Source: Candidatus Aminicenantota bacterium
GTDB lineage: Bacteria; Acidobacteriota; Aminicenantia; Aminicenantales; UBA4085
NCBI GenBank assembly: GCA_016931595.1
Contig: JAFGEN010000196.1
Coordinates: forward strand, 1 to 33,253
Length of the DNA stretch: 33,253 bases
Direction of reading: 5' to 3'
Numbering within the stretch: the first letter of the stretch is position 1; each line of letters opens with the position of its first letter. The notes beneath the pieces are model-generated. The model was given only the letters and a program-made list of their open reading frames with translations. It was not told the origin of the DNA and ran no database searches. The position numbers were made by a program, and so were the translations under genes. Of the stretch, positions 911 through 27,705 are shown in pieces.

Positions 911-2897
911 TCCAGCCCCCCGCAATCCACTCGATCAGATCCACCCGGGCGCCCGGGAATTGCGCCGGAAGGCGGAAACGCAGGCGAGCGAAGGACGCCG
1001 CCTGGAATCCCGGTCTTCCGGGGAGATGCGGGAACCGCTTCATGAGCTTCGGGTCCACCAGATCGAGCTCGAGATGCAGAACGAGGAATTGCGCCGGACG
1101 CAAGCGGAACTGGAAGCCATGCGGGAGAAGTATTTCGACCTGTACGACCTGGCCCCCGTAGGATACCTCGTTCTCAACGAACAAAACCTGGTTCTGGAGG
1201 CCAACCTGACGGCCGCAACCCTCCTGGGAGAGAATAAAGGATCGCTGGTCAACAAACCGATCACCCGCTTCCTCTTTCCCGAGGACCAGGATGTTTATTT
1301 CCGGCACCACAAGCATCTTTATGAAACGAATGCGCCCCAGGATTGCGAGTTGAGGATGATCCGCAAAGACGGGTCCGTATTCTGGGCGCAAATCGAGGCC
1401 ACTGCGGCCCAGGCCGCCGACGGCAAGCCGACATGCCGTGCCGTGATAAACGACATTTCCGACCGCAAACAGGCGGAAGAAGAACTGCACGAGGCCGAGC
1501 TGAGATACCGGACACTCGCGGACTCCGGCCGGGCTTTGATCTGGACTTCCGGCCCGGACAAGAAGTGCGATTATTTCAACCTGCCCTGGCTGATGTTCAC
1601 CGGAAAAACGTTCGAGCAGGAACTGGGGGACGGTTGGACCGAAGGCGTCCATCCGGACGACCTGGAACGCTGCGTGGAAATTTACAGTGTCGCGTTCGAC
1701 CGGCGCGAGCCGTTCAGCATGGAATACCGCTTGCGCCATCGCGACGGCTCTTTCCATTGGCTCCAGGACGACGGCTCTCCGCGCTACGACCGAAAAGGCC
1801 TCTTCCTGGGCTATATCGGCCATTGCCTGGACGTCACCGCTCATAAACAGGCGGAAGCCGCCCTCCAATCGTCCGAAGCCCGGCACCGGCTCCTCGTGGA
1901 AAACGCCCAGGAAGCCATCGTTGTCGCCCAGGACGGAATTCTCAAATTTGTGAATCCAATGGCCCTCCGCCTCTCCGGATATTCGGAGGCGGCACTCCTC
2001 TCCCTGCCCTTCCTCGAACTCATCCATCCGGACGACCGGAACATGGTCGCCGAACGCCACCGGACGCGGCTCTCCGGAGAGACCGATCAGCCCCGGTACG
2101 CCTTCCGTTTGCTGACGCATGGCGGAGACGTCAGGTGGGTCGAAATCAGCGCCGTTCAAATCGACTGGAACGGCCGCCCGGCCACGTTGAATTTCCTCAC
2201 CGACATCACCGACCGCCGGAAAGCGGAAGACACCATCCAGGCCGATTTAAGGGAAAAGGAAGTCTTGCTCCGGGAAATTCATCACCGGGTCAAGAACAAC
2301 ATGCAGGTCATTTCCAGCCTCTTGAATCTTCAAGCCGAAGCCGTCGCCGATGGAAGCGCCCGCTTGATTCTCAAGGAAGGCCAATTGCGCATCCGGGCGA
2401 TGGCCCTTGTTCACGAAAAGCTCTACCGGTCGCGGGACCTATCCCGGATCGACTTCGCCGAATATCTTCAAAGCCTGACGAATCACCTCTTTCATTTCTT
2501 TGCGGTCGGATCCGGCCGGGTCCGCTTCAAGGCAGAGATGGAGCCGATCGACCTGGACATCAACACGGCCGTTCCCTGCGGCTTGATCTTCCACGAGCTG
2601 GCCTCGAACGCTTTGAAGCACGCCTTCCCAAACGGGCGGGAAGGGATTATCGAAGTCGGCCTGGGGAGGAAGAAGGATGGAACCATCCGGCTCCGGGTCG
2701 CGGATAACGGGGTTGGATTTCCCGCGGACTTGGACTTCACTCTTACGAAAAGCTTCGGCCTTCAGATCGCCAACCTGCTTGCCGGGCAAATCGATGGAAC
2801 GATCGCCCTCGACCGGTCGAAGGGGACGTCGTTCACCCTGTCCTTTCGCGAAATGGAGAAAAAAAGAGACCTCGAACCCGGGCGCGGACTCCCATGA
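891..2897 (+). CDS. Multi-PAS histidine kinase, HisKA_2 type
   Basis: This is a 668-aa soluble sensor kinase with no membrane segment. The ATG at 891 is chosen because GAGGAG lies just upstream; the frame stays open back to 810 without a comparable ribosome site. Order: charged coiled-coil (residues 1-80); PAS1 (about 80-195, ending ISDRKQAEEEL); PAS2 (about 205-320, PAS_3-like, ending DVTAHKQAEAAL); PAS3 (about 330-445, ending DITDRRKAED). Next come the HisKA_2 phosphoacceptor region, LREIHHRVKNNMQ around His464/465, and an HATPase with N-box FHELASNALKHAF near 566 and G1 box DNGVGFP near 605. HisKA_2 kinases usually feed response regulators or anti-sigma switches, and no cognate regulator is visible here. 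The overlap with the upstream CheB/CheR-PAS gene suggests one signalling unit. The input ligand cannot be told from sequence. Confidence 0.9.
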   Translation: MSKKKHDPAPRNPLDQIHPGARELRRKAETQASEGRRLESRSSGEMREPLHELRVHQIELEMQNEELRRTQAELEAMREKYFDLYDLAPVGYLVLNEQNLVLEANLTAATLLGENKGSLVNKPITRFLFPEDQDVYFRHHKHLYETNAPQDCELRMIRKDGSVFWAQIEATAAQAADGKPTCRAVINDISDRKQAEEELHEAELRYRTLADSGRALIWTSGPDKKCDYFNLPWLMFTGKTFEQELGDGWTEGVHPDDLERCVEIYSVAFDRREPFSMEYRLRHRDGSFHWLQDDGSPRYDRKGLFLGYIGHCLDVTAHKQAEAALQSSEARHRLLVENAQEAIVVAQDGILKFVNPMALRLSGYSEAALLSLPFLELIHPDDRNMVAERHRTRLSGETDQPRYAFRLLTHGGDVRWVEISAVQIDWNGRPATLNFLTDITDRRKAEDTIQADLREKEVLLREIHHRVKNNMQVISSLLNLQAEAVADGSARLILKEGQLRIRAMALVHEKLYRSRDLSRIDFAEYLQSLTNHLFHFFAVGSGRVRFKAEMEPIDLDINTAVPCGLIFHELASNALKHAFPNGREGIIEVGLGRKKDGTIRLRVADNGVGFPADLDFTLTKSFGLQIANLLAGQIDGTIALDRSKGTSFTLSFREMEKKRDLEPGRGLP

Positions 2898-2914
2898 GGA
2901 AGGGGCTTCATTCG

Positions 2915-2943
2915 TTGACAAACCCCCGTTTTTCCTTTATTTT
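2915..2943 (+). promoter_or_regulatory. Sigma-70-type promoter for the DUF948-ytxH pair
   Basis: TTGACA (2915-2920), a 17-nt spacer, then TATTTT (2938-2943). The -10 ends only 9 nt before the ATG at 2953 and there is no Shine-Dalgarno sequence, so the transcript should start within a few bases of the start codon. Confidence 0.65.
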
Positions 2944-2952
2944 GTCCCTGCC

Positions 2953-3327
2953 ATGACCCTCACCCTCAACCAGGCGTTGTTTCTCATTCTCACGATCGCC
3001 TTCGTCGCGGCCGTCGTGGTTCTCATCCGCCTGTTTTCCCAGCTGCGGAAAACAGCGGAGGAGGGGGAGAAAACCCTGGCCGAGTTCGCCGATTTGGCCC
3101 GGCACCTGAAGGAGCTCGACCTCGTGGTCAAGGACCAGGTGGAAGCGCTGGCCGAGACGATCGCCGCCTCCAAAAAGACCGCCGTCAACGTCGCCGAGGC
3201 TTCCTCGCTGATCACCTGGAAGGTCTTTCGTCCTTCATCCCGATATCTTCCCCTGCTCATCCCGGCCGCCCGGTTTCTCTGGCGGCTGGTCGTCAAAAGA
3301 AAAAAGGAGAGAGCCCATGTCAAATGA
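2953..3327 (+). CDS. DUF948-like single-span membrane protein
   Basis: A 124-aa protein. Residues 5-28 form a hydrophobic membrane segment. A predicted coiled-coil follows (about 30-85, RKTAEEGEKTLAEFADLA...), then a basic tail with a second partly hydrophobic stretch (YLPLLIPAARFLWRLV) ending KRKKERAHVK. This matches the small DUF948 family, whose genes commonly sit beside ytxH, as here (11-nt overlap with the next start). Function is not established; in Firmicutes the pair is tied to general stress and envelope integrity. The start is the ATG placed 9 nt after the -10 box; longer in-frame extensions reach into the kinase gene and are not credible. Confidence 0.75.
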   Translation: MTLTLNQALFLILTIAFVAAVVVLIRLFSQLRKTAEEGEKTLAEFADLARHLKELDLVVKDQVEALAETIAASKKTAVNVAEASSLITWKVFRPSSRYLPLLIPAARFLWRLVVKRKKERAHVK

Positions 3328-3607
3328 AGGAAAAAGCTGCGTCGTTGAAACCGCCGTATCCTTTCTGATCGGAGCCGCGGCGGGTTTCATCGCCGGAATC
3401 CTGCTGGCCCCGGCCGCGGGCAAGGAAACGCGGAAAAAAATCGGCGATGAAATCAACAAGGGAACGGAAAAAGCAAAGGAAGGCGTGGAAAAGCTGGCCC
3501 ATGAAGCCGAGAAAGGCTTCCGCACCGTCCGCGAAAAAACCCACGAAGGCATCGAGGCCGTCAAAGACTTCGTCGAAAAGAAGAAAGGCGTCCCGGCCAA
3601 AGAGTAG
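3317..3607 (+). CDS. YtxH-domain protein
   Basis: A 96-aa protein. Residues 12-33 form the characteristic YtxH membrane segment (FLIGAAAGFIAGILLAPAAG), immediately followed by KETRKKI. The rest is a charged, Ala/Lys/Glu-rich amphipathic helix resembling LEA/apolipoprotein repeats (KAKEGVEKLAHEAEKGF...). The ATG at 3317 follows AAAAGGAGAGA, a strong ribosome site, and overlaps the end of the DUF948 gene, so translation is probably coupled. The family is a stress-related, membrane-anchored protein without known enzymatic activity. Together with the preceding gene it forms a typical two-gene envelope-stress unit. Confidence 0.85.
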   Translation: MSNEGKSCVVETAVSFLIGAAAGFIAGILLAPAAGKETRKKIGDEINKGTEKAKEGVEKLAHEAEKGFRTVREKTHEGIEAVKDFVEKKKGVPAKE

Positions 3608-5447
<1,840 letters not shown>

Positions 5448-6016: not shown

Positions 6017-6045
6017 TTGACAATCCTTCCCCCGGAGGTTAAGAT
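6017..6045 (+). promoter_or_regulatory. Sigma-70-type promoter for the M20 gene
   Basis: TTGACA (6017-6022), a 17-nt spacer, then TAAGAT (6040-6045). The predicted start point falls on or next to the GTG at 6051, so the message would be leaderless. The GGAGG at 6034-6038 lies in the spacer, upstream of the predicted transcript, and would not be part of the mRNA. Confidence 0.6.
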
Positions 6046-6050
6046 GAGAC

Positions 6051-7367
6051 GTGGTTTTGCGCACGATTTTTCCGACACTAACTCTTTTATTTGCATTCCT
6101 TTGCCCCTCAGCGGGCTTCTCCGTTGACGACAAGAAGATTGCGACCGAAATCGACCGGGAAGTCGAAAAAATCCGGATGGAAATGGTCAAAATCCGGCGG
6201 CTGATCCATATGGACCCCCAACTTCCGGGCCGTGAGCAGGAAACGGCTAAAATCGTCGCCTCCCGGTTGAGCGCCCTCGGCCTGGAGGTGAAAACCAATA
6301 TTGCCGGGAGCGGCGTGACCGGCCTTCTTCGAGGCGCCCAGCCCGGTCCTGTGATCGGCCTTCGTGCTGAAATGGATGCCATGCCGATCCAGGAGATGGC
6401 CGACGTGCCTTTTAAATCGGTCAACGGCGGGGTGATGCACGCCCACGGCCATGACCTTCACGTTGCCATCGCCTTGGGAACGGCCTACGTTCTGAACGGC
6501 CTCCGGAACCAAATGAAGGGCGCAGTCATCTTCATCTTCCAGCCGGGAACCGACCCGGCCGATCCAGCCAGGGAAAGCGGCGCATCCCGGATGATCAAAG
6601 AGGGGGTTCTCGACTCTCCTCCGGTCAATATCATCCTGGGTTTTCATGTCTGGCCGGAAGCGCTCGGGCAGGTCTATTCAGCCTCCGGCCCGATCCTGGC
6701 CGCCTCCGATTCGTTTGAAATCGACATTAAGGGAAGGCCGGCCCAGGCCTCCCAGCCTCAGGAGGGAGTTGATGCGATCGTCCTGGCCGCCCAGGTCATC
6801 AACGCCCTCCAGACGATCGTCAGCCGGTCCGTCGAACCGACCGATCCGGCCTCGCTGACGATCGGCCGGATTGCGGGCGGAACGAAGGCGGACCTCGTCT
6901 CGGACCGGGTTTGGATGGACGGCATCCTTCGGACGATGAACGACGCGACCCGCCGAAAGGTTCAGCGGTTGATGGAGGCCGCGGTGAAGGGGACGACCCA
7001 GGCCTTCGGCGGCGATTATTCCCTGACCTTCAGGCAGTCCGTCCCGGCCGTATCCAACCACCCCGAGCTTTTCGCCTCTCTCTTGCCGGCGCTCAACGCC
7101 GCCTCCGGAGACCGGACGGTGCAGACGCTCGGTCCGCAGATGATGTCCGACGATTTCTCTTTCTACGGGCGAAAGATCCCGGGCCTTTTCTTCTTCCTCG
7201 GAACGAAGAACTCCCGGACTGCCCCGGCCCCCCTGGACAGTCCGTATTTCAACCCGGACGAACGCAGCATCCCCATCGGCATCAAGATCCTCAGCCACGT
7301 CATCCTCGACTGCCTGGAACAGCAAAGCCGTCTTACCGACAGCGCCGGGATCAAACTGGATAAGTAG
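6051..7367 (+). CDS. Exported M20D-type peptidase/amidohydrolase-like protein with altered active site
   Basis: A 438-aa protein. Residues 1-24 look like a signal peptide (TIFPTLTLLFAFLCPSAGFS). The fold-defining motifs of M20D amidohydrolases (hippurate/IAA-amino-acid hydrolase type) can be followed throughout: RRLIHMDPQLPGREQETA, LRAEMDAMP, MHAHGHDLH, IFIFQPGTD, GFHVWP, KGRPAQASQP, MSDDFSFY and DSPYFNPDE. Several usual catalytic positions differ. The metal-ligand Cys of HACGHD is His132. The catalytic Glu-Glu of QPAEE is Thr167-Asp168. The His of the lid-domain GGH motif is Gln232. The metal-ligand His before SPxF is Asp396. It may use a different metal site or be inactive. The start is GTG 6051 because TGA at 6045-6047 closes the frame upstream; the better-placed ATG at 6044 is out of frame. 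It lies 7 nt before comEC. Confidence 0.85.
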   Translation: MVLRTIFPTLTLLFAFLCPSAGFSVDDKKIATEIDREVEKIRMEMVKIRRLIHMDPQLPGREQETAKIVASRLSALGLEVKTNIAGSGVTGLLRGAQPGPVIGLRAEMDAMPIQEMADVPFKSVNGGVMHAHGHDLHVAIALGTAYVLNGLRNQMKGAVIFIFQPGTDPADPARESGASRMIKEGVLDSPPVNIILGFHVWPEALGQVYSASGPILAASDSFEIDIKGRPAQASQPQEGVDAIVLAAQVINALQTIVSRSVEPTDPASLTIGRIAGGTKADLVSDRVWMDGILRTMNDATRRKVQRLMEAAVKGTTQAFGGDYSLTFRQSVPAVSNHPELFASLLPALNAASGDRTVQTLGPQMMSDDFSFYGRKIPGLFFFLGTKNSRTAPAPLDSPYFNPDERSIPIGIKILSHVILDCLEQQSRLTDSAGIKLDK

Positions 7368-7374
7368 GGGGCCG

Positions 7375-9747
7375 ATGGCCTATCCGCTCCTCTTCCCGAC
7401 GATCGCTTTTATCGCCGGCCTCGCCGCCGCGGCCGAATTATCCCCCTCCCCGGCCGCAGTCCTCGGACCCGCCGTCTTCGCCCTGGCCGCAGCCTGGTTT
7501 TGCTACAGCCGCCGCTGGACACGCATTGCGTTCCTCTGCCTCCTGGCCGCTTCGGCCGCCGCCGGGGCCGGGGCCCTGGCGTCCTTCGACCGGGCCTATG
7601 AGCAAAACCCCCTCCGCCATCTCCCCCGGGGCGAATACTTCGACTGGACCGGGACCGCTTTCCGCTCGCCCGAACCCGGCCTGGACAATGACTTCATCTA
7701 CATTCAGGCGGAATCCGTCGAAGCCCGGGGCGAAATCCATGCGGTCTCGGGCCGGCTCCGCATTTCGGTCGGCCGCTCTGACCAAGGCGCCCATCTCCCC
7801 GAGATCGTCGCCGGAGACCGCCTTCGGATTTCCGCTCAAATCGTCCCGCCGGCCGAATACCGGAATTTCCGCAAATCCTTCACCCCGGCCTACCTGAAAT
7901 CGAGGAAGATCCACGCCCTGGCCTCGGCCAAAAGCCCTCTTCTCGTCCAGCGCCTCGGACCCGGGCGGATATTCCCTCCGCTCCGCTGGATTTCCCGGCT
8001 GCGGCGAACCTGCCTCAGCCGGATCGATGCCCTCTTCGCCATCCCAGGCCGTCCGGGAGGGCTTTCTTCGGTTGGCGCCGTCATTTCCGCCCTCGTCCTC
8101 GGCGAGCGCTCGCGGATGGATCCGGAGACGACCCGGACACTCCAGAAATCCGGTCTTTATCATCTCTTCGCCATTTCCGGGGCCCATATCGCCCTCATCT
8201 CGGCGCTCCTTTTCGGCCTGTTTCGGACTCTTCGCCTCAAGGAGCGGCCGTCCTATCTCCTCCTTCTTCTCGTTCTCGTTTTTTTCGGCTTTTTCGTCGA
8301 AGGACGGGCATCCGTCGTCCGGGCCGTGATCATGGCCGTCGCGTTCATCGCCGGAAAGCTGCTCTGGCGGGACGTCCATCTCCTCAATACGATCGCCGCC
8401 TCCGCCCTGGCCATCCTGCTTGTCCGTCCAACCCAGGCCTTGGAGGCCGGCTTCCAGCTGACCTTCGTCGCGACTCTGGGCCTGATCCTTTTTTTCAGAC
8501 CGGTCAGGAATAGGCTGCCCCCGCTCCCCTCCAGGATCGGAGATCTTTTGGCCCTCTCGATCGCCGCCCAGGCGGCGGTGATGCCGATCATGGCCGCCGT
8601 TTTTCACCGGGTGATTTTCTCCGGTCTCATCCTCAACTTCATCGGCGTTCCCCTCGTGATCGCGATCATGGCCGCGGGGTATGTCGTTCTGCCGGCCGTA
8701 TTCCTTTTCCCGTTCCTGGCCCAGGCAGCTGCCGCGGCCCTTTCGGTTCCGATCCGCCTGCTTCTCTCCTCGGCCGGCTGGCTGGACGGCCTTCCCTTCC
8801 TTTCCTATCGCATCCCGACGCCGCCTTGGCCGGTCATCGCCGCTTACTACGGCTTCCTTCTTCTCCTTCTCCTTCCCAAGCGATTCGTTCTGCCCCGCCG
8901 AATCGGCGGAGCCGGTTTCGCCGCGGCCCTGGTCGCACTCTCGATTTATCCCTTCCCGGCCCGGGTCAAGGACTTGACGGTCACGGTCCTCGACGTCGGG
9001 CAGGGGGAAGCGATCCTCGTCGAGTTTCCCGGAAAGGAGAAGATGCTCATCGACGCCGGCGGCCTTCCGACGGATGCGTTCGATACGGGCGAGAACGTGG
9101 TCTCCCCTGTTCTTTGGGACAAGGGAATCAAAAAAATCGACGTCCTCGTCCTGAGCCACGCCCACCCGGACCACCTCAACGGTCTTCCGACAATGGCCCG
9201 AAATTTTCGGGTCGGCGAATTCTGGGAGGGCACGCCGGCCCCGGAGAATCCGCGTTACCTGGACCTCCTGAAGGCCCTCGGCCCGGCTCCCCGATTCCGG
9301 GTCCTCCGCGGCTTTCGAAGAACCGTCGGCGGCGTGGAGATCCTCGCGGTTGCGCCGGCCGCCTCGATCGCATCCGGGGAATCGGACAACGATTCCTCCG
9401 TCGTCCTTCGGCTCGTCCACGGCACGACGGCCGCGCTCCTAACCGGCGATATCGGCCGAACCGTGGAAGCGGACATTCTGGCCTCGGGAGAGGACATCCG
9501 GTCGCAGGTTCTCAAAGCTCCCCATCACGGAAGCAACTCCTCCAGCTCCGAGGAGTTTCTGGCCGCCGTCGGTCCGGAGAATGCCGTCATTTCAGCCGGC
9601 CGGGGAAACCATTACGGGCTTCCCCATCCCGATGTCCTATCCCGGTACGAGCGGCTTGGGGCTCGGATCTTCCGGACGGACCTTCACGGGGCCGTCGAAT
9701 TCCGAAGCGACGGACGCCGGTGGGCCGTCCGGACTTCCGTTCGGTGA
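7375..9747 (+). CDS. comEC: ComEC/Rec2 family DNA-uptake channel
   Basis: A 790-aa inner-membrane protein that carries single-stranded DNA into the cytoplasm during natural transformation. Membrane segments at residues 5-65 flank an N-terminal soluble OB-like domain (about 70-185, DUF4131 type). The Competence domain follows, with about eight membrane helices (225-510, including LFAISGAHIALISALLFGLF). The C-terminus is a metallo-beta-lactamase-fold domain (about 535-790) starting TVTVLDVGQGEAILVEFPG, with an intact HxHxDH motif in LSHAHPDHLNGL near residue 595 and KAPHHGSNSSSSEEFL later. An intact metal motif agrees with a nuclease role on the incoming strand. Length is typical of full three-domain ComEC. 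It probably shares a transcript with the M20 gene. The type IV pilus genes further along could supply the uptake pilus. Confidence 0.95.
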   Translation: MAYPLLFPTIAFIAGLAAAAELSPSPAAVLGPAVFALAAAWFCYSRRWTRIAFLCLLAASAAAGAGALASFDRAYEQNPLRHLPRGEYFDWTGTAFRSPEPGLDNDFIYIQAESVEARGEIHAVSGRLRISVGRSDQGAHLPEIVAGDRLRISAQIVPPAEYRNFRKSFTPAYLKSRKIHALASAKSPLLVQRLGPGRIFPPLRWISRLRRTCLSRIDALFAIPGRPGGLSSVGAVISALVLGERSRMDPETTRTLQKSGLYHLFAISGAHIALISALLFGLFRTLRLKERPSYLLLLLVLVFFGFFVEGRASVVRAVIMAVAFIAGKLLWRDVHLLNTIAASALAILLVRPTQALEAGFQLTFVATLGLILFFRPVRNRLPPLPSRIGDLLALSIAAQAAVMPIMAAVFHRVIFSGLILNFIGVPLVIAIMAAGYVVLPAVFLFPFLAQAAAAALSVPIRLLLSSAGWLDGLPFLSYRIPTPPWPVIAAYYGFLLLLLLPKRFVLPRRIGGAGFAAALVALSIYPFPARVKDLTVTVLDVGQGEAILVEFPGKEKMLIDAGGLPTDAFDTGENVVSPVLWDKGIKKIDVLVLSHAHPDHLNGLPTMARNFRVGEFWEGTPAPENPRYLDLLKALGPAPRFRVLRGFRRTVGGVEILAVAPAASIASGESDNDSSVVLRLVHGTTAALLTGDIGRTVEADILASGEDIRSQVLKAPHHGSNSSSSEEFLAAVGPENAVISAGRGNHYGLPHPDVLSRYERLGARIFRTDLHGAVEFRSDGRRWAVRTSVR

Positions 9748-9776
9748 ATTCCGTCCGGCAAACGGAACCTTCACAT

Positions 9777-9810
9777 TTGACAGGAGTTGCAACGAGCGTT
9801 ATTATATAAT
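9777..9810 (+). promoter_or_regulatory. Sigma-70-type promoter with two overlapping -10 candidates
   Basis: TTGACA (9777-9782), a 17-nt spacer, then TATTAT (9800-9805). A perfect TATAAT overlaps at 9805-9810, but with a 22-nt spacer. Either choice puts the start point 0-6 nt before the ATG at 9818, and there is no Shine-Dalgarno sequence. Confidence 0.65.
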
Positions 9811-9817
9811 CAGCAAA

Positions 9818-10396
9818 ATGAGATTAAGACGACTGGTTGCCGCGGTTTTATCCTTGGGTCTGGCCGTCTGCCTCTCCGGACAGGATTTGGCCGGCGCAGC
9901 CAAGAAAGAAAAAGAGCGGCGGGAAAAATTAAAAAACAAGGCGGCCACCGTCGTGACCAACAGCGACCTGGCCAAGATTAAAAAGAAAGCCGCAGTCGAA
10001 AATGCGGCCCAGCCTCGAACCGAAATGCAAACCGAGGGACAGGCCCCTCCGGACGGAGAAGAAGGGTCCCCGCCCGAGCCGGCGAAAAAACCAACGGCCG
10101 TCGGCGCAGAGCCGGGAAAAGGACTCCGAGTCGCCGAAGCGGAAGCCGACGCCGAAATCAGACGGGCCGAACTTCAGGAGAAATTCGACCGGGCCAAGGA
10201 GCGGGTGGAGTTCCTCACCCTGAAAATGAGGGCCCTCCAGCAGCAATTTTTTTCCTTCAACACCATGCAATCGAAGGAACAGGTCCAGAAGGAAATCGTC
10301 GAGACGAACCTCAAGCTTCAGGCGGCCACGGCCGAAGAGGCCGCCTTGAAAAAAGAGTTTGACGAATTTTCAGCAAAAAATCCCATCAAGAAATAG
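9818..10396 (+). CDS. Exported coiled-coil protein of unknown function
   Basis: A 192-aa protein that I do not recognise. Residues 1-28 form a signal peptide (RLRRLVAAVLSLGLAVCLSG, with likely cleavage after an AGA). Cys18 has Val at -1, which argues against a lipobox. A Lys/Glu-rich segment (28-60) and a Pro/Gly/Glu-rich linker (60-100) follow. Residues 105-185 form a long helical coiled-coil (AEAEADAEIRRAELQEKFDRAK...). The start at 9818 is set by the promoter directly upstream; the frame is open further up but only inside comEC. It is a monocistronic-looking unit, convergent with the lipoprotein gene 28 nt away. It may be a periplasmic structural or chaperone-like protein, but this is only a guess from shape. 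Confidence 0.7.
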   Translation: MRLRRLVAAVLSLGLAVCLSGQDLAGAAKKEKERREKLKNKAATVVTNSDLAKIKKKAAVENAAQPRTEMQTEGQAPPDGEEGSPPEPAKKPTAVGAEPGKGLRVAEAEADAEIRRAELQEKFDRAKERVEFLTLKMRALQQQFFSFNTMQSKEQVQKEIVETNLKLQAATAEEAALKKEFDEFSAKNPIKK

Positions 10397-10423: not shown

Positions 10424-11290
10424 TTACCGGAAATAGATGAAGGACACCTGCAGGCCGAGTTCCCGGTCGTCTTGGGAGGAAGGGTTGATCTTGGACGGAA
10501 TGAAGGACTCGCTCACCCCGATCGAAAGGGTGAACTCGTCCTTGTCGCCCAGCATCTCCTTCTGGATCTCGTAGGATTTCTCGAACAGCCCTTCGTTCGG
10601 GACGAACTCGTCGAAGGCCAGGCCGTTGATCTTCAGAATAATCTTCGGGTCCTTGACATCGGAAATGTTGGCTCCGCCCTTGATGACCAGGAGGGCGTCC
10701 CTCCTGGGATTATCGATGATGCACTTGGCTTCCTTGGCCGTCCAGCGCCACTGCTTGAGGGGATTGTTCTGGTCGACCTCCAGGTCGTACCAGCCGCTCT
10801 CGTAAATGACCTCGGGCGTTCCGATCGGCGGGGGGAGAACCTTGAGCTTGCGGGTCATGACCTCGCGCGGGGCATCGCCGCTCCGGTCATAAGGATTGAC
10901 CAGGCCGACGACCAGCCGAAGGCTCTCCTCCCCCTTGAACTGAGGGTCGAATTCGTCGATGAACTTGGGGATATAGATCCGCCTTGTGATCGTATAGGCC
11001 TTGTCCTTCTCCCACTCGGCGGTCGCCGGGTCCGGAGCGTGATCATCCTGGAAGATCAGGTTTTCGTTGTGCCAGAAATGGACGAACACATGGTATTCGC
11101 GGTCGAACTTCAGGAAATCGCTCCCGGTTTTCCAGGTATACGTGATGTCGGTGATCAGGTTGTCCGAAAGGACGGGCTCGGCGAAGGCGACGTCCAGCGA
11201 AACGCCCTGGATCTGGGTCTTTTTTTGACAACCGGCGGCGGCCAGGGCCGCGGCGACGATGAGGATCCCCAAGCGAACCGTCCGTTTCAT
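10424..11290 (-). CDS. Lipoprotein of unknown function
   Basis: A 288-aa protein with an N-terminal lipoprotein signal (IVAAALAAAGCQKKTQ; lipidation at Cys21), so it should be membrane-anchored on the periplasmic side. The mature part looks rich in beta strands and has two halves: about 25-165 (DVAFAEPVLSDNLITDITYTW..., with a FVHFWHNENLIFQDDHAPDP segment) and about 175-288 (YESGWYDLEVDQNNPLKQWRW..., resembling an immunoglobulin/carbohydrate-binding-like sandwich). I do not recognise a named family. The ATG at 11290 follows GGAGGAGG. Transcription is divergent from lpxK across a 119-bp promoter region, so it may be coregulated with lipid A genes. Confidence 0.75.
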   Translation of the reverse strand: MKRTVRLGILIVAAALAAAGCQKKTQIQGVSLDVAFAEPVLSDNLITDITYTWKTGSDFLKFDREYHVFVHFWHNENLIFQDDHAPDPATAEWEKDKAYTITRRIYIPKFIDEFDPQFKGEESLRLVVGLVNPYDRSGDAPREVMTRKLKVLPPPIGTPEVIYESGWYDLEVDQNNPLKQWRWTAKEAKCIIDNPRRDALLVIKGGANISDVKDPKIILKINGLAFDEFVPNEGLFEKSYEIQKEMLGDKDEFTLSIGVSESFIPSKINPSSQDDRELGLQVSFIYFR

Positions 11291-20875: not shown

Positions 20876-20912
20876 GTGACGCATATTGTCTATATGCGAC
20901 GCATTTTGTCAC
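20876..20912. promoter_or_regulatory. Candidate PilR upstream activation site, two 13-bp repeats 20 bp apart
   Basis: GACGCATATTGTC (20878-20890) and GACGCATTTTGTC (20898-20910) differ at one base and start exactly 20 bp apart, about two helical turns. Overlapping palindromes are present: CGCATAT/ATATGCG and ATGCG-A-CGCAT. The block lies just past the pilR stop, centred about 95 bp upstream of the pilin -24 element, where enhancer sites for sigma-54 activators usually sit. Confidence 0.6.
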
Positions 20913-22336
20913 AGCTCTGTCGGTTCAGGGGGCAAATCCCTACTATCGCCCCTTGGCTCGACTCCCCGGACTGGTTTGATCTCATATTTTTTGATCAGGT
21001 AACGCAAGGACCGGTAGCTCACCCCGAGGAGTTCAGCCATTCGGCGCATATTGCCAGCGGCCGCCCCCGCGGCTTCCTGGATATAGGCTTTGGCTACCTT
21101 GTCCAAATGGGTTTCAAGATTGAAGCCCGGAATCAGGGCCGGACTTCCCATGGCCGGAAGAGCCCCGGCGTTGACGATATCGGAAGGGAGGCTCCCCATG
21201 GTGATCGTCTCCCGTTCCTCCACTGCGCACATTCTCTCGACGACGTTCTCCAGTTCCCGGACATTGCCTGGCCAGGAATAGTTCATCAGGGCCGAGACGA
21301 CATCGGGCGTCATCCGCTTGACCTTGCGGCCCATTTTTTCGCAGTGTTTCCGGAGGAAGTGCTGGACCAGGACCGGAATGTCCTCCGTCCGCTTCCGCAA
21401 GGCCGGCATATCGACCGAGATGACGTTCAGCCGGTAGAACAGCTCCTCGCGGAACTTGCCCTCCTCGATCCGCTTGCGGAGGTTCTGGTTGGTCGCGGCG
21501 ATGACGCGCACGTCCACGGCGATTTCCTCGTTGCCCCCGACCCGGCGGATCGTCCTCTCCTGAAGAACCCGGAAGAGCTTCACCTGGGTCCAGGGCGACG
21601 TTTCCCCGACTTCGTCCAGAAAGATCGTCCCGGCCGAGGCCGTTTCGAACATGCCCTTTTTATCCGACACGGCCCCCGTAAACGACCCCTTCATGTGTCC
21701 GAACAGCTCGCTTTCCAGGAGGTTCTCCGGGAGGGCGGCGCAATTGATGGAAACGAAGGCCCGCTCCTTCCGCCGGCTGTTGGCATGGATCGCCCGGGCG
21801 GCCAGCTCCTTTCCGGTCCCGCTTTCCCCGGTGATCAGGACGGTGGAGTCCGTCGAGGCCACCTTCTCGATGAGTCCGTACACCTCCCGCATCGCCCGGC
21901 TCTTTCCGATCATGTTCTCGAAGCTGGATTCCTCGCGGAAGGTCTGCTTGAGAATCCGGTTTTCCTCGAGCAGCCGACGGTGTTCGAGACCGTTGGCCAC
22001 CAGGATCTTCAGCTCATCGATGTCGAACGGCTTGGTCAGGTAATCCAGGGCGCCCAGGCGAAGGGCCTCGACGGCCTGCTTGACGCTGGCATAGGCGGTG
22101 ATCATAATCGCCGGGACGGTCGGCTTGGCCTCCTTGAGACGCCGGAGCACGTCCATTCCGTCGACTTGGGGCATTTTGATGTCGCAGATCAGGAGGTCGA
22201 TGTCTTTCTGTTCGATGTCCTCGAATACGCTCGGAGCGCCCGGGTTGGACAGGACGGCGTATCCTTCCTTCTTCAGGACGACGGTCAACAGCTCGACGAT
22301 CGACCGTTCGTCGTCGACGATCAGAACCGTGTTCAT
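20909..22336 (-). CDS. pilR: Sigma-54-dependent response regulator PilR
   Basis: A 475-aa NtrC-type regulator that activates pilin transcription with RNA polymerase-sigma-54. The receiver domain (1-120) has phosphorylatable Asp52 in DLLICDIKMPQVDG and a TAYAS/TKPF pair. The AAA+ domain (about 140-375) has Walker A GESGTGKE (170-177), the sigma-54-contacting loop as GSFTGA (217-222; usual form GAFTGA, with the key Phe and Thr kept), GTIFLDEVGE as Walker B, and arginine-finger-region sequence NYSWPGNVRELENVV. The C-terminal Fis-type helix-turn-helix is MRRMAELLGVSYRSLRYLIKKY. Its start overlaps pilS by 4 nt. The two pilin genes downstream have sigma-54 promoters, so they are the obvious targets. 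Confidence 0.96.
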   Translation of the reverse strand: MNTVLIVDDERSIVELLTVVLKKEGYAVLSNPGAPSVFEDIEQKDIDLLICDIKMPQVDGMDVLRRLKEAKPTVPAIMITAYASVKQAVEALRLGALDYLTKPFDIDELKILVANGLEHRRLLEENRILKQTFREESSFENMIGKSRAMREVYGLIEKVASTDSTVLITGESGTGKELAARAIHANSRRKERAFVSINCAALPENLLESELFGHMKGSFTGAVSDKKGMFETASAGTIFLDEVGETSPWTQVKLFRVLQERTIRRVGGNEEIAVDVRVIAATNQNLRKRIEEGKFREELFYRLNVISVDMPALRKRTEDIPVLVQHFLRKHCEKMGRKVKRMTPDVVSALMNYSWPGNVRELENVVERMCAVEERETITMGSLPSDIVNAGALPAMGSPALIPGFNLETHLDKVAKAYIQEAAGAAAGNMRRMAELLGVSYRSLRYLIKKYEIKPVRGVEPRGDSRDLPPEPTEL

Positions 22337-23628
22337 CGGCTTCCGGCCTCCCTTCCTTCGCCCCCGGACGGGGGGAATTCCCTGTACGGCAGGGTGATCA
22401 GGACTTCGGTTCCGACATGCGGCTCGGATTGAACCGCGATGTTCCCCGCGTAGCTGTCGAGGATCTGCCGGACCACGGCCATGCCCAGGCCGCGGCCTCC
22501 GTCGAACCGGGTATAGAACGGCTCAAATATTCGGGCTTTCTCCTCGGCCGTCATTCCCCGGCCCGTGTCGATAATTCGAATGGAGAGATCGTTTTTTTTC
22601 GGGCGGCCGAAATCGACTGAAAGTTCGCCCCCCTCGGGCATCGCCTTCAGGGCGTTCCCGATCAGGTTCCAGAAGACCTGCTTGAACTGCCCGGGGCTCC
22701 CGAAATACGTGATGTCGGCCGAGGAATAATTGCCCTTGATCTTGACCAGGTCGGTCAGTTCGCCGCTCATCCGGAGCATCGTCAGCGTTTCGGAGACCGG
22801 CTCGGCCAGTTTGAAGGCGGAATAGGTCTGCTTGCCCGGTCCGGCCATGCTGAGGAACTGCTCGATGGACAGGGAGACCCGCCGTGACTCCTTGACGACG
22901 ATGGCCATCAGGCGGGACTGCTCCTCGTCCAGGGACAGGTCGCCCTGGAGGACCTGGACGGCGCCGGAGATCGCGGCCAGGGGGTTTCGAATCTCGTGTG
23001 CGACAAAGGCCGAAGCCCGGCCGGCGGCCGCTTCCCGCTCCCGAGCCTCGATTGCCTTTTGAGCCGCCGCCAGGGCCGCCCTGGTTTTTCGGAGGCTCGA
23101 GGACAGCTGGGCGACCAGGACCGCGATCACGAAGAAAAGCCCCCAGGCGGTGAAGACTGTATACAGGGTGAACCCGATTCCCGTATCCGGCGCCTGGTCC
23201 GGACGGAAATAAGGAATCCAGCCATAGGCCAGGCTGTCGGCCAGAACCCCGAAGAGAATCGAGGAGAGGGCCGCGGTCAGGAACGCCGCCCGACCTTCCA
23301 GGACAAGGCCGGCGGCGATGATGGAAAAGACGTAAAGAAAATGAAGCTGGCCGCTGATCCCGCCGGAAATATACACCAGGCCGGAGATGACCGCCAGGTC
23401 GACCAGGATCTGGGCGTAGGCCTGGGCCCGGTAATGGGTGTCGAAGAGGAGGAGCAGTAAAAAACCGGCCCCGCTGATAAATTCCGAAATGATCAGGAAA
23501 TAGAACGGAGCCAGGGGAAGAAACGACGACGTGGCCAGTTGGATCACCACGGCCGCGACGAACAGCGAGCTGACGACGACCAGCCGCCCGAGGAGCAGCC
23601 AGCGGACGTTTCGCTTCAGGATCAACAT
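22333..23628 (-). CDS. pilS: Sensor histidine kinase PilS
   Basis: A 431-aa membrane kinase. About six membrane helices (residues 10-175) match the PilS sensor, which in Pseudomonas senses pilin level in the membrane. A short coiled linker (175-205) leads to HisKA with FVAHEIRNPLAAISGAVQVL (phosphorylated His211). The HATPase has N box VFWNLIGNALKAMPEGG, IIDTGRGM, IFEPFYTRFDGGRGLGMAVV and GTEVLITLPY. It pairs with pilR by a 4-nt overlap and follows pilC by 4 nt, so the whole pilBTCSR block reads as one operon. Confidence 0.94.
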   Translation of the reverse strand: MLILKRNVRWLLLGRLVVVSSLFVAAVVIQLATSSFLPLAPFYFLIISEFISGAGFLLLLLFDTHYRAQAYAQILVDLAVISGLVYISGGISGQLHFLYVFSIIAAGLVLEGRAAFLTAALSSILFGVLADSLAYGWIPYFRPDQAPDTGIGFTLYTVFTAWGLFFVIAVLVAQLSSSLRKTRAALAAAQKAIEAREREAAAGRASAFVAHEIRNPLAAISGAVQVLQGDLSLDEEQSRLMAIVVKESRRVSLSIEQFLSMAGPGKQTYSAFKLAEPVSETLTMLRMSGELTDLVKIKGNYSSADITYFGSPGQFKQVFWNLIGNALKAMPEGGELSVDFGRPKKNDLSIRIIDTGRGMTAEEKARIFEPFYTRFDGGRGLGMAVVRQILDSYAGNIAVQSEPHVGTEVLITLPYREFPPSGGEGREAGSR

Positions 23629-23632
23629 CAGA

Positions 23633-24838
23633 TCATTGGATCTGGCCGATCAGGCTGAAGATCGGAAGGTACATGGAGATGACGAGGGTGCCGACGAGGC
23701 CGCCGATGAAGATCATCATGAACGGCTCCATAATGGACAGCAACGACCCGACGGTGGAATCGATTTCGTCGTCGTAGAAGTCCGCCAGCTTGTTGAGCAT
23801 CTTGTCCAGGGTCCCCGTGGCCTCGCCGACGCTGACCATCTGGACCAGCATGAAGGGAAACCTTCCGGTGCTCTTCATCGAGTCGGTCATGCTCCGGCCT
23901 TCGGTCACCTGCTTGCGGACATCCATGACCGTCTTTTCCAGGATGACGTTGCCGGCCGTCGTCGATGTGATCTTGATGGCTTCCAGCATCGAGACGCCGC
24001 CCCCGAGAAGAGTGGCCAGCGTCCGGGTCACCCGGGAAAAGGCGACCTTGGTCATCAACGGGCCGAACAGCGGCAGCTTGAGGATGATGTTGTCGGTCGT
24101 CCACCGCCCGCCTTGGGTTTTCCGGTAATAGCGGAACAAGAAAATCGCCGCGACCACGCCCAGGGCCAGAAAGAGCATGTATTTCTGGACAAAACCGGAC
24201 AGGCTGATCACGCCCGCCGTCAACGAGGGCAGCCGCGCCCCCAGGTCGACGAAGATCTGGGCGAAGATCGGGATGATTTTCCAGAGCATGAAGACGGCGA
24301 TAATGATGGCGAAGACGAAAATGGCGACCGGGTAGGTCATGGCCTGCTTGACCCGGGCTTTCAGCTTGACCGTGTTCTCGGTGTAATCGGCCAGCCGGTT
24401 GAGCATGGTGTCCAGGGTTCCGCTCTGCTCGCCCGAGGCGATCAGGTTGCAGAACAGGTCGTCGAACACCTTGGGGAATTTCCGCAGGCCTTGGTCCAGG
24501 CTCGAACCGGCCTCGACGTCGGAACGAACCTGGGTGATGACCCGCTTGAAATACGGATTACGGGTCTGCTCGGCCATGATATTGAGGCCCTGGATGAGGG
24601 GCAGCTCGGCGTCGATCAAGACGGACATCTGCCGGGAAAACACGGCCAGCTCCTTCGTCTTGACCTTCTCCCGCTTGAGAAACGGAATATTGAGACCGCC
24701 CCGGACCGGAGAGACACTGTCGACCTTGATCTGCTCCCGCTGGAGCAGCCGGGTCAATTCCTCGGCGCTGGCCGCAACCCGTTGGCCGTCGACCATATCG
24801 CCGAATTTGTTGGTGCCCTTCCAAGAATAGACCGGCAT
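23633..24838 (-). CDS. pilC: Type IV pilus inner-membrane platform protein PilC
   Basis: A 401-aa T2SSF-family protein that forms the inner-membrane platform coupling the cytoplasmic motors to pilin polymerisation. The N-terminus MPVYSWKGTNKFGDMVDG is typical. Two homologous T2SSF domains follow: about 65-190 (FSRQMSVLIDAELPLIQGLNIM... VFDDLFCNLIASGEQSGTLDTML) and about 270-395 (FSRVTRTLATLLGGGVSMLEAIK... PFMLVQMVSVGEATGTLDKMLNKLADFY). Membrane helices lie near 168-190, 218-240 and 370-395. It is preceded by pilT with an 18-nt gap, and GAAGGAGCG precedes the ATG. Confidence 0.96.
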   Translation of the reverse strand: MPVYSWKGTNKFGDMVDGQRVAASAEELTRLLQREQIKVDSVSPVRGGLNIPFLKREKVKTKELAVFSRQMSVLIDAELPLIQGLNIMAEQTRNPYFKRVITQVRSDVEAGSSLDQGLRKFPKVFDDLFCNLIASGEQSGTLDTMLNRLADYTENTVKLKARVKQAMTYPVAIFVFAIIIAVFMLWKIIPIFAQIFVDLGARLPSLTAGVISLSGFVQKYMLFLALGVVAAIFLFRYYRKTQGGRWTTDNIILKLPLFGPLMTKVAFSRVTRTLATLLGGGVSMLEAIKITSTTAGNVILEKTVMDVRKQVTEGRSMTDSMKSTGRFPFMLVQMVSVGEATGTLDKMLNKLADFYDDEIDSTVGSLLSIMEPFMMIFIGGLVGTLVISMYLPIFSLIGQIQ

Positions 24839-24856
24839 GGGAACGCTCCTTCAGGT

Positions 24857-25954
24857 TCAGCGCTTGACGGTCGTGGCCACCCCGGCCCCCCGGCGCTGGA
24901 TGAGGTCGGTCAGCTCTTCCGGGTTGGACGTGGCCATCATAGCCGTATCGAGGGTGATCATCTTGCGGTAGTAGAGGTCGCAGAGGTTCTGGTTGAACGT
25001 CAGCATCCCAAACTTCTCCTGGCCAAGCTGCATCTGGGAGTAGATCTGGTGGATCTTGTTCTCCCGGATCAGGTTGCGAACGGCCGGATTCGGGATCAGA
25101 ATCTCCATGGCCAGGACCCGGCCTTTGCCGTCGGCCCGGGGCAGGAGCGACTGGCAGAGAACGCCCTCCAGGGACATCGAGAGCATGACCCGGGCCTGGG
25201 CCTGGTACTGGGGGGGGAAGATATCGATGATCCGGGAAATCGTTTCGGGAGCCGAATTCGTGTGGAGCGTGGAAAAGGTCAAATGCCCCGTCTCGGCCAC
25301 CCGGAGCGTCATCTCGACCGTCTCCTGGTCGCGCATCTCGCCGACCAGGACAACGTCGGGGTCTTCCCGGAGGACGGAACGGAGGGCGTTGTTGTAGGAC
25401 AGGGTGTCGGCGTGGAGCTCGCGCTGGTTGATCAGGGCCTTCTTGGGAGTGAAGAAATATTCGATCGGGTCTTCGATGGTGACGATATGAACAGGCCGCT
25501 CGGTATTGACATGATCGATCATGCAGGCCAGGGTCGTCGATTTGCCGCTCCCGGTGGGGCCGGTCACCAGGATCAATCCGCGCGGCAGGAAGCAGAGTTG
25601 GGCGATCCGGGCCGGGATCCCCAGCCGCTGGAAGCTCCACATCGAGGGGAGGAAACGCCGGATGGCCGCGGCCACTCCGCCTTTCTGCATGAACACATTG
25701 GCCCGGAACCGTCCGAGGTCTTTGACCCCGAAGGAGAGGTCGAGCTCGAGTTTCTCCTCGAAGAGCTTTTTCTGCTTATCGGTCAGGATGCTGTAGATGA
25801 GGTGCTTGGTCTCGGTCGGAGACAGGGGCGGATGGTCGATCGACTTCAACTCTCCATAGATCCGAATCCGCGGGGGGATGTAGGTCGACAAATGGAGATC
25901 ACTGGCGTCGGAGTCGACCGCCAGCCTCAACAGCTCGTGCATCGTCATGGGCAT
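24857..25954 (-). CDS. pilT: Type IV pilus retraction ATPase PilT
   Basis: A 365-aa hexameric ATPase that disassembles the pilus, powering twitching and DNA uptake. An N-terminal PAS-like domain (1-100) contains SDASDLHLSTYIPPRIRI. Walker A is TGPTGSGKST (132-140), the Asp box is TIEDPIEYFF, Walker B is DVVLVGEMRDQETV, and the His box is TGHLTFSTLHTNSA. The retraction signature is present as PNPAVRNLIRENKIHQIYSQMQ (PilT AIRNLIRE-type motif), which separates it from PilB. The C-terminal tail is basic. The ATG at 25954 is followed by another in-frame ATG (MPMTM); GGAGAAGAG is the ribosome site. Confidence 0.96.
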   Translation of the reverse strand: MPMTMHELLRLAVDSDASDLHLSTYIPPRIRIYGELKSIDHPPLSPTETKHLIYSILTDKQKKLFEEKLELDLSFGVKDLGRFRANVFMQKGGVAAAIRRFLPSMWSFQRLGIPARIAQLCFLPRGLILVTGPTGSGKSTTLACMIDHVNTERPVHIVTIEDPIEYFFTPKKALINQRELHADTLSYNNALRSVLREDPDVVLVGEMRDQETVEMTLRVAETGHLTFSTLHTNSAPETISRIIDIFPPQYQAQARVMLSMSLEGVLCQSLLPRADGKGRVLAMEILIPNPAVRNLIRENKIHQIYSQMQLGQEKFGMLTFNQNLCDLYYRKMITLDTAMMATSNPEELTDLIQRRGAGVATTVKR

Positions 25955-25971
25955 GTCTCTTCTCCAGGAAT

Positions 25972-27705
25972 TTAATCCTTGACGGTTTCACGCAGGACCT
26001 CTTCGGGAGTCGTGATCCCGGCCATGATCTTGATCAGGCCGCTGCGCCGCATGGTGATCATGCCGCTTTCGACGGCTTTTTTCTTGATGTCTTTGGACTG
26101 GGCCCGAAGCAGAATCATCTCCCGGATCTCCGCATTGAGTTCCATGACCTCGAAAAGGGCGGTCCGGCCTTTATACCCCGTGTTGTGGCAGATCTCGCAA
26201 CCGCGCCCTTGCATGATTGTCACCGTTTCGGCTTCCTCCGGAGAAAATCCCATATCGATCAACGATTTGACCGGAAGCTTCGTCGGGGCGCCGCATTTCT
26301 TGCAGACCCGGCGGATCAGGCGCTGGGCCAGGACCAGGGCCAGGGAGTCGGCGATGAGAAACGGCTCGATGTTCATGTTGATCAGGCGGTGGATCGTCGC
26401 CGCTGAATCGTTTGTGTGGATGGTGGAGAAGACGAGGTGGCCGGTCAGGGCGGCCTTGATGGCGATATCGACGGTCTCCTGGTCGCGCATCTCCCCGATC
26501 AGCATGATATCCGGGTCCTGGCGAAGGAAGGCCCGAAGGGCGGCGGCGAACGTCAGGTTGATCTCGTCCCGGATGTTGACCTGGTTGACGCCGGGGACAT
26601 AGAACTCGACCGGGTCCTCGGCAGTCATGATATTCTTCTCCATTCCGTTGAGTGTCGAAATGGCCGAGTACAAGGTGTTGGTCTTCCCGCTTCCGGTCGG
26701 ACCGGAGACCAGGATGATGCCCCAGGGCCGGGCGATGGCCCGTTGGAACGTGGTCAGGGATTCCTGTTCGAAGCCGAGCTTGTTGAGGTCGATGTTGAGG
26801 TTGTCCTTGTCCAGGAGCCGGGCGACGATCTTTTCGCCGAAGATCGTCGGCAGACAGGAGATGCGCATATCGACTTCTTTTTTCAACCCCTTTTCCATCC
26901 TGGCCCGCATTTTGATCCGGCCGTCCTGGGGCAAGCGCTTCTCGGCAATGTCCATATTGGACATGATCTTGACCCGCGAGGTCAGCGGATTTTTAAATTT
27001 CATCGGAAGGTTCATCGTCTCGTACAGGACGCCGTCGATCCGGTACCGAATGCGGAAGGATTTCTCGTAGGGCTCGAAATGAACGTCGCTGGCCCCTTTC
27101 TTGATGGCCTCGACGAAGATGTTGTTGACCAAGGTGATGATCGGGGCCTCGTCAGGGACGTCTTCGTCGACCTCCGTATCCTCGTCTTCCTCGACTTTCT
27201 CGAGCTGCTCGATGACCGAGATCTTCGTGTCATCGGCCAACTCGATTTCTTCGATGTTCTTCTTGACCTTGAGGCCATGGCCGGCCCCGTAGTACTTGTT
27301 GATGGCGTTGACGATCCCGGCCTCCGAGGCGATGACCGGCTGGATACTCAGGCCCGTCCGGAACCGAATGTCCTCGATGATATCCAGGTCGGTCGGGTCG
27401 ACCATGGCCAGGGTCAGGAACGACCGGATGCGATGGATCGGCATGACCAGGGATTTTTTGGCTGAATCGGCGGTGATCAGGCTGATGACATCGGGATAAA
27501 CCTCGAATTGGTCGAGGTCGATATACGGATACCCCAACTGCCGGCTGAGGCCCTGGGCCATTTCTTCACCCGAAAGAAAATTCAGGGATACGATGGCCGA
27601 GCCCAGGGGGACGTCGTGTTTTTTCTGGAATTCCTGGGCGGCTCTCAGCTGTTCAGGAGTGAGGATCTTTTCCTTCAGAAGAACTTCGCCCAGTGTTGAA
27701 CCCAT
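25972..27705 (-). CDS. pilB: Type IV pilus extension ATPase PilB
   Basis: A 577-aa GspE/PilB motor that drives pilus assembly. The N-terminal MshEN/T2SSE_N domain (1-140, GSTLGEVLLKEKILTPEQL...) belongs to a domain class that in several PilB proteins binds c-di-GMP. An acidic linker (152-188) precedes the ATPase: SDVHFEPYEKSFRIRYRIDG, Walker A SGPTGSGKT (335-342), TAEDPVEFYVPGVNQV, MLIGEMRDQETVDIA, and a tetracysteine zinc site at Cys468, 471, 503 and 506 (RRVCKKCG / GRGCEICHNTGYKGR). It is the first gene of the pil operon. A predicted -10 lies 9 nt before the ATG and only a weak AGGG is between, so it may be translated from a near-leaderless transcript. Confidence 0.96.
   Translation of the reverse strand: MGSTLGEVLLKEKILTPEQLRAAQEFQKKHDVPLGSAIVSLNFLSGEEMAQGLSRQLGYPYIDLDQFEVYPDVISLITADSAKKSLVMPIHRIRSFLTLAMVDPTDLDIIEDIRFRTGLSIQPVIASEAGIVNAINKYYGAGHGLKVKKNIEEIELADDTKISVIEQLEKVEEDEDTEVDEDVPDEAPIITLVNNIFVEAIKKGASDVHFEPYEKSFRIRYRIDGVLYETMNLPMKFKNPLTSRVKIMSNMDIAEKRLPQDGRIKMRARMEKGLKKEVDMRISCLPTIFGEKIVARLLDKDNLNIDLNKLGFEQESLTTFQRAIARPWGIILVSGPTGSGKTNTLYSAISTLNGMEKNIMTAEDPVEFYVPGVNQVNIRDEINLTFAAALRAFLRQDPDIMLIGEMRDQETVDIAIKAALTGHLVFSTIHTNDSAATIHRLINMNIEPFLIADSLALVLAQRLIRRVCKKCGAPTKLPVKSLIDMGFSPEEAETVTIMQGRGCEICHNTGYKGRTALFEVMELNAEIREMILLRAQSKDIKKKAVESGMITMRRSGLIKIMAGITTPEEVLRETVKD

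Follow-up and report, generated by a model that had tools for sequence, protein, structure and literature searches.

Why would a bacterial lineage keep an enzyme gene intact, and in its place, after the product has lost the catalytic residues of its family? This question is raised by a gene at positions 6051–7367 (+ strand, GTG start, 438 aa) of a 33,253-nucleotide stretch of a Candidatus Aminicenantota genome (assembly GCA_016931595.1, contig JAFGEN010000196.1; hereafter, the window), whose product has an M20D fold, is catalytically degenerate, and is predicted to be a pseudoenzyme. The genomes compared were metagenome-assembled and included the window's own bacterial family (f1, 12 genomes), its sister family (f5), and other families of the same order (f2, f3, and f6). 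That the gene is kept next to comEC throughout the family despite its lost catalytic residues suggests that the protein does something besides cleaving a substrate.

The M20D fold and its altered active site

The gene product matches the amidohydrolase profile TIGR01891 at 289.4 bits against a curated cut-off of 153.75, together with both Pfam Peptidase_M20 and M20_dimer, that is, the two-domain M20 fold with its lid/dimerisation domain (residues 221–313 in the profile match; 6711–6989, + strand), and the solved M20D enzymes 4ewt, 1ysj, 1xmb, and 6slf. An AlphaFold2 model built from a six-sequence alignment (mean pLDDT 84.6) matches 4ewt with a target-normalised TM-score of 0.91 (E = 2.5e-41), and the scores against M20D structure targets range from 0.82 to 0.91 over the whole length. 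Because the profiles, the solved-structure matches, and the model agree, the M20D fold and descent of the protein can be regarded as certain on these sequence and model comparisons, bearing out the M20D-type amidohydrolase fold proposed in a first-pass annotation of the DNA. A hydrophobic stretch recognised by eye at residues 3–23 marks a probable N-terminal signal peptide (6051–6122, + strand); a similar segment is present in orthologs, and the protein is predicted from it to be secreted.

Crystallography of the M20D enzyme CsAga (6SLF) shows two zinc ions bound by Cys105, which bridges both, and by His107, Glu141, His168, and His370, and a loop from the second subunit of the dimer reaches into the active site (PMC7209930). 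For the related M20A enzymes, the Glu preceding the ligand Glu is described as the general base, and a lid-domain His as a contributor to the oxyanion hole (PMC10699109). The five zinc-binding residues of CsAga correspond to positions 132, 134, 168, 199, and 396 of the window protein, respectively (chain numbering in the 6slf alignment is the paper's plus one); position 396 was mapped via the LHSPxF motif and the 4ewt alignment, because the 6slf alignment stops short of it.

At the seven catalytic and metal sites, the window protein reads H132, H134, T167, D168, H199, Q232, and D396. The motif HAHGHD (6438–6455) has His132 at the bridging-Cys position and keeps the ligand His134; in QPGTD (6540–6554), the general base Glu is replaced by Thr167 and the ligand Glu by Asp168; in GRPAQ, within the lid domain, the oxyanion His has become Gln232 (6744–6746); and in LDSPYF (7233–7250), the C-terminal ligand His is now Asp396 (all + strand). 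His199 is retained as a ligand alongside His134, position 107 is also altered (RAD to RAE), and a further change, Asn281 to Asp, is fixed in 11/11 f1 orthologs. Thus, the protein shares fold and lid domain with the M20D amidohydrolases (YxeP, 1ysj; ILL2, 1xmb; CsAga, 6slf; the S. aureus enzyme, 4ewt; and hippurate hydrolase), but lacks the bridging Cys, the general-base Glu, the lid His, and the C-terminal His, and its ligand Glu is Asp.

All five substitutions (132, 167, 168, 232, and 396) had been correctly placed in the first-pass annotation, which had named canonical residues displaced by a few positions as the finding that would overturn it. No such residues were found: the alignment with active orthologs is unambiguous and has the same length, and it shows no displaced His close to 232 or 396. 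The number of residues from QP to GGA/SGA is equal in the window protein and its closest active orthologs, and Glu175 (in RES) pairs with the non-catalytic Glu of ...GEEGGA, not with the base; given this equal spacing, Glu175 is not a displaced base, and nothing has shifted. Selenocysteine was considered for the internal TGA of some paralogs and rejected for the two read in frame, L027 and L028, in which the stops mark the ends of the genes.

A conserved promoter–M20D–comEC unit

The gene is preceded by a predicted sigma70-like promoter, TTGACA-N17-TAAGAT (6017–6045, + strand), identified from the sequence and by comparison. With its -10 element ending 5 nt ahead of the GTG codon, the gene probably yields a leaderless mRNA, as far as can be predicted from sequence. 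The arrangement TTGAC(A/T)-17/18-TAAGAT/TAATAT, followed after 5 to 8 nt by the start codon, recurs in the other f1 genomes holding the region and in many f2 and f3 orthologs. Across many genomes of the order, the -10 element ends 5–8 nt from a GTG or ATG start in active and dead copies alike.

The next gene of the presumed operon is comEC/rec2 (7375–9747, + strand), which carries a nuclease-type HxHxDH motif; upstream lie a conserved enolase gene (3656–4951, + strand) and, divergently, a gene for O6-methylguanine-DNA methyltransferase (MGMT; 4944–5447, - strand) that is conserved in f1. In f1, as far as contigs extend, the genes keep the following order: enolase, MGMT (on the opposite strand), M20D, comEC, a small gene, an opposite-strand gene, lpxK, lpxL, and an RNase PH-like gene; about 4.3 kb separates M20D from comEC in G006, and G003 preserves no more of M20D than its C-terminal end, at the contig edge. 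M20D followed by comEC is found in f1, f2, f3, f5, and f6, as well as in G153, a genome from another family of the class that has an active ortholog there, and the unit conserved across the order is promoter, M20D, and comEC, downstream of enolase.

Where both genes are covered in f1, M20D always lies in the comEC unit, whereas in other families a number of genomes that carry comEC have no M20D ortholog or only a remnant of it (G014, G020, G037–G039, G042, G043, G053, G090, and G093), so ComEC does not appear to need M20D in general. Only the position of the gene hints at a part in DNA uptake. Coupled loss of the two genes was considered, since genomes without comEC hits also tend to lack M20D, and was set aside; this co-absence is uninformative because the genomes are incomplete and the genes adjacent. 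A supposed M20D–comEC fusion, a 1237-aa open frame in G007 and G008, proved to be two in-frame ORFs split by a TGA.

Repeated loss of the catalytic residues

The comEC-linked active orthologs of the order share gene position, promoter type, and gene order with the window, and are 45–54% identical to its protein. They keep all seven catalytic and metal residues, unlike the window protein: C132, H134, E167, E168, H199, H232, and H396 are present, wherever covered, in all 52 such orthologs compared from f2, f3, and f6 once the degenerate lineages are set aside. By contrast, C132, E167, and H232 are all missing in each of the 11 readable f1 orthologs, in which C132 is replaced by H, T, S, or K, and E167 by T, A, G, S, or D, while position 232 holds Q, E, D, P, or A, or is deleted; the contrast between the two sets exceeds what chance would give. 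Further losses in f1 affect H396 (10/11), H134 (five), E168 (changed in five), and H199 (three); the substitutes for E168 (D, Q, P, or H) and H396 (D, E, Y, S, or R) differ between genera. The sister family f5 includes a copy that has lost the base alone (E167A, in G055) and keeps the five metal ligands, and another with S167, G132, and N134 (G054); at position 367, every f1 and f5 row has Asp in place of the SEDF Glu. A second degenerate group, comprising G022 and genus g20 (G032–G034), lies in f2, with g20 extremely degenerate. The M20D reading frame is intact in 11 f1 genomes, the twelfth being G003 with its C-terminal end, and no stop occurs in f1 orthologs down to 49% identity.

An IQ-TREE gene tree of 85 rows joins f1 (100/100) with f5 (96/94), and nests G022 and g20 inside f2. 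Parsimony on this tree requires two changes of state from active to degenerate, a count drawn from a gene tree some of whose branches are long (1.91 for g20), and an AU test rejects a single clade of all degenerate rows (p = 0.0002). Long-branch attraction would, however, tend to draw the dead rows together rather than separate them. The catalytic residues have thus been lost at least twice, independently. Within f1 and f5, the base appears to have gone first, followed by the bridging Cys and other residues, an order drawn from a single intermediate, G055, which shows only the first step.

The g20 homologs (L104, L105, and L106, from G032–G034) are comEC-linked and extremely diverged (branch length 1.9), with PINAQSF or PINAQPF in place of RADMDALPI and QPGARTS or QPGGKTQ in place of QPAEEG; their frames are intact and their dN/dS is low. 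A separate case is L112 (G049, 2426–3725), an M20D gene split across two frames near residue 160, with an unreadable codon at the break; this is either an assembly problem or a frameshift. A scan of public genomes returned only canonical M20D proteins, and no relative was found among the viral contigs searched.

Selection on the degenerate copies

Pairwise dN/dS was estimated by the NG86 method with a simple script of our own, with dS near or above 1 in some pairs. For pairs of dead copies, M20D gave 0.147 (G007/G008), 0.131 (G000/G005), 0.181 (G002/G001), 0.176 (G010/G011), and 0.046 (G032/G033, where dS is about 2 and close to saturation), against 0.228, 0.225, 0.225, 0.223, and 0.125, respectively, for comEC; the M20D value is the lower of the two in every pair. 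Active M20D pairs with usable dS range from 0.06 to 0.33, and this similarity indicates that the dead proteins are as constrained as the active ones. Among the 101 positions that do not vary within the active clade, all 7 catalytic or metal positions varied in the dead clade, compared with 14 of the 94 others (Fisher p = 7e-6); 59 of the 101 are unchanged in all dead copies, and the pocket neighbours 130, 133, and 135 remain invariant.

True decay, for contrast, is seen in G042 and G043, which keep only short M20D remnants ahead of comEC. These remnants, L149 (G042, 4518–4725) and L147 (G043, 4834–4968), lie immediately before comEC and preserve 28–45 N-terminal residues, with 37 C-terminal residues also present in G042; in their genus, sister species still have the complete active gene. 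The intact frames and low dN/dS of the degenerate orthologs, which stay constrained after the loss of catalytic residues, therefore mark a conserved pseudoenzyme lineage rather than decay.

Proposed function and alternative readings

We consider it probable that the window protein belongs to a conserved M20D pseudoenzyme lineage and acts as a secreted, non-catalytic binding or scaffold protein derived from an active comEC-linked amidohydrolase. The ancestor would have been an active, secreted M20D amidohydrolase encoded ahead of comEC in this order; the general-base Glu would have been lost in the common ancestor of f1 and f5, after which erosion would have spread, lineage by lineage, to the bridging Cys, to the lid His, and to further ligand positions. 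The present protein would retain the M20D fold as a periplasmic dimer and bind a ligand or partner without catalysis; that it works without catalysis is the most likely reading, because fold and selection persist, but a different mechanism or residual activity may exist. The non-catalytic role would already have been present in the active ancestor, and probably predates the loss of catalysis, since at least two such losses left the gene, its promoter, and its position in place. A more elaborate version, in which the gene is co-transcribed with comEC, an ancestral non-catalytic function (possibly the binding of a ligand or metal in connection with the competence machinery) permitted at least two catalytic losses, and the former dizinc site turned into a different metal-binding site in the window's genus, is unlikely as a whole.

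The first-pass annotation had proposed either a re-engineered metal site or a binding-only protein, not random decay. Purifying selection on a gene kept intact by the whole family after its catalytic residues were lost speaks against decay and supports a binding-only protein as a possible reading. A recast metal site is not supported for the subfamily: the loss of C132, E167, and H232 is common to f1, but the replacement residues differ between genera. In members of the window's genus, metal-capable residues do occupy all substituted ligand positions, and a new structural, storage, or sensing site formed after catalysis was lost by His132, His134, Asp168, His199, and Asp/Glu396 in that genus only is a tentative alternative that we rate as rather unlikely. 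Both full-length members concerned, G000 and G005, have H132, H134, D168, H199, and D or E396, so that 6/6 substituted ligand cells are H, D, or E, and the C-terminal fragment from the third member, G003, has E396, whereas only 2/47 substituted ligand cells hold H, D, E, or C in the other degenerate copies. The pattern was noticed post hoc, in two to three related sequences with non-independent cells; G004, which is assigned to this genus too, reads T/N/Q/H/S at the five ligand positions, and the bridging Cys is gone family-wide.

We give little credence to two other readings. The protein might regulate an active M20D paralog, blocking or tuning it in mixed dimers: M20D enzymes work as dimers, each active site receiving a loop from the partner subunit (PMC7209930), the missing lid His would cripple the partner's site, and G000 encodes catalytically intact paralogs (L002, 41%; L003, 34%). 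Against this, G002, G010, and G011 (95–98% complete) show no other full-length M20D, with weak partial matches only, so a general role in mixed dimers is unlikely. Equally improbable is neofunctionalisation, in which the enzyme would catalyse a different reaction or use a different base, such as Asp167 in G009; the invariance of pocket neighbours 130, 133, and 135 fits such an enzyme, and pseudoenzymes can prove active by way of residues that have migrated (PMC10211241), but no consistent replacement exists for the base (A, G, S, D, or T at 167) or for the lid His (232). Least credible of all is recent relaxed decay, with the dead gene now being lost. Its loss or truncation in other lineages speaks for this, but the frame is intact in every fully covered f1 genome, dN/dS is 0.05–0.18, the promoter is kept, and orthologs have diverged to 49% identity without a stop.

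The preferred reading, a conserved non-catalytic protein, finds parallels in known systems. A β-alanine synthase variant, E159A (PDB 2v8h), which was retrieved by the fold search, has an M20 fold in which the catalytic Glu is replaced by Ala and was crystallised with bound substrate; Glu159 is presumably the base. It is comparable to the natural E167A copy of G055, but is an engineered mutant from a different M20 subfamily. Within M20D, the Cys137Ser substitution in the plant protein PpILR1 abolishes hydrolysis while a second function remains (PMC8149794), a precedent in this family for an additional activity that can be separated from catalysis. The fungal pseudonucleases Ssd1/Dis3L2 have likewise repeatedly lost catalytic residues in orthologs that were kept, implying an older non-catalytic role, although their protein family is unrelated and their second function is known to be RNA binding (PMC8097288). 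A limited search of the open literature found no report of M20D pseudoenzymes.

A single orthologous gene thus offers a natural series from fully active, through base only lost (G055) and partly eroded, to fully eroded; together with two independent losses and a gene that is kept, this series makes a non-hydrolytic M20D function testable. The automatic label "amidohydrolase", assigned above the curated cut-off, is misleading across the whole lineage, and the comEC operon contains an unexplained gene.

Other features of the comEC region

Two further genes of the region gave no family match. The opposite-strand gene between comEC and lpxK (10424–11290, - strand) encodes a 288-aa protein that is 61–77% identical among f1 loci and has no Pfam or NCBIfam match. 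A second frame (9581–10396, + strand), likewise without a family match, overlaps the end of comEC; its C-terminal part is conserved in the order, and the true start is probably later. About 11 kb away from comEC lies a type IV pilus-type cluster (20912–27705, - strand), with genes for a sigma-54 response regulator, a PilS-like kinase, and PilC-, PilT-, and PilB-like proteins.
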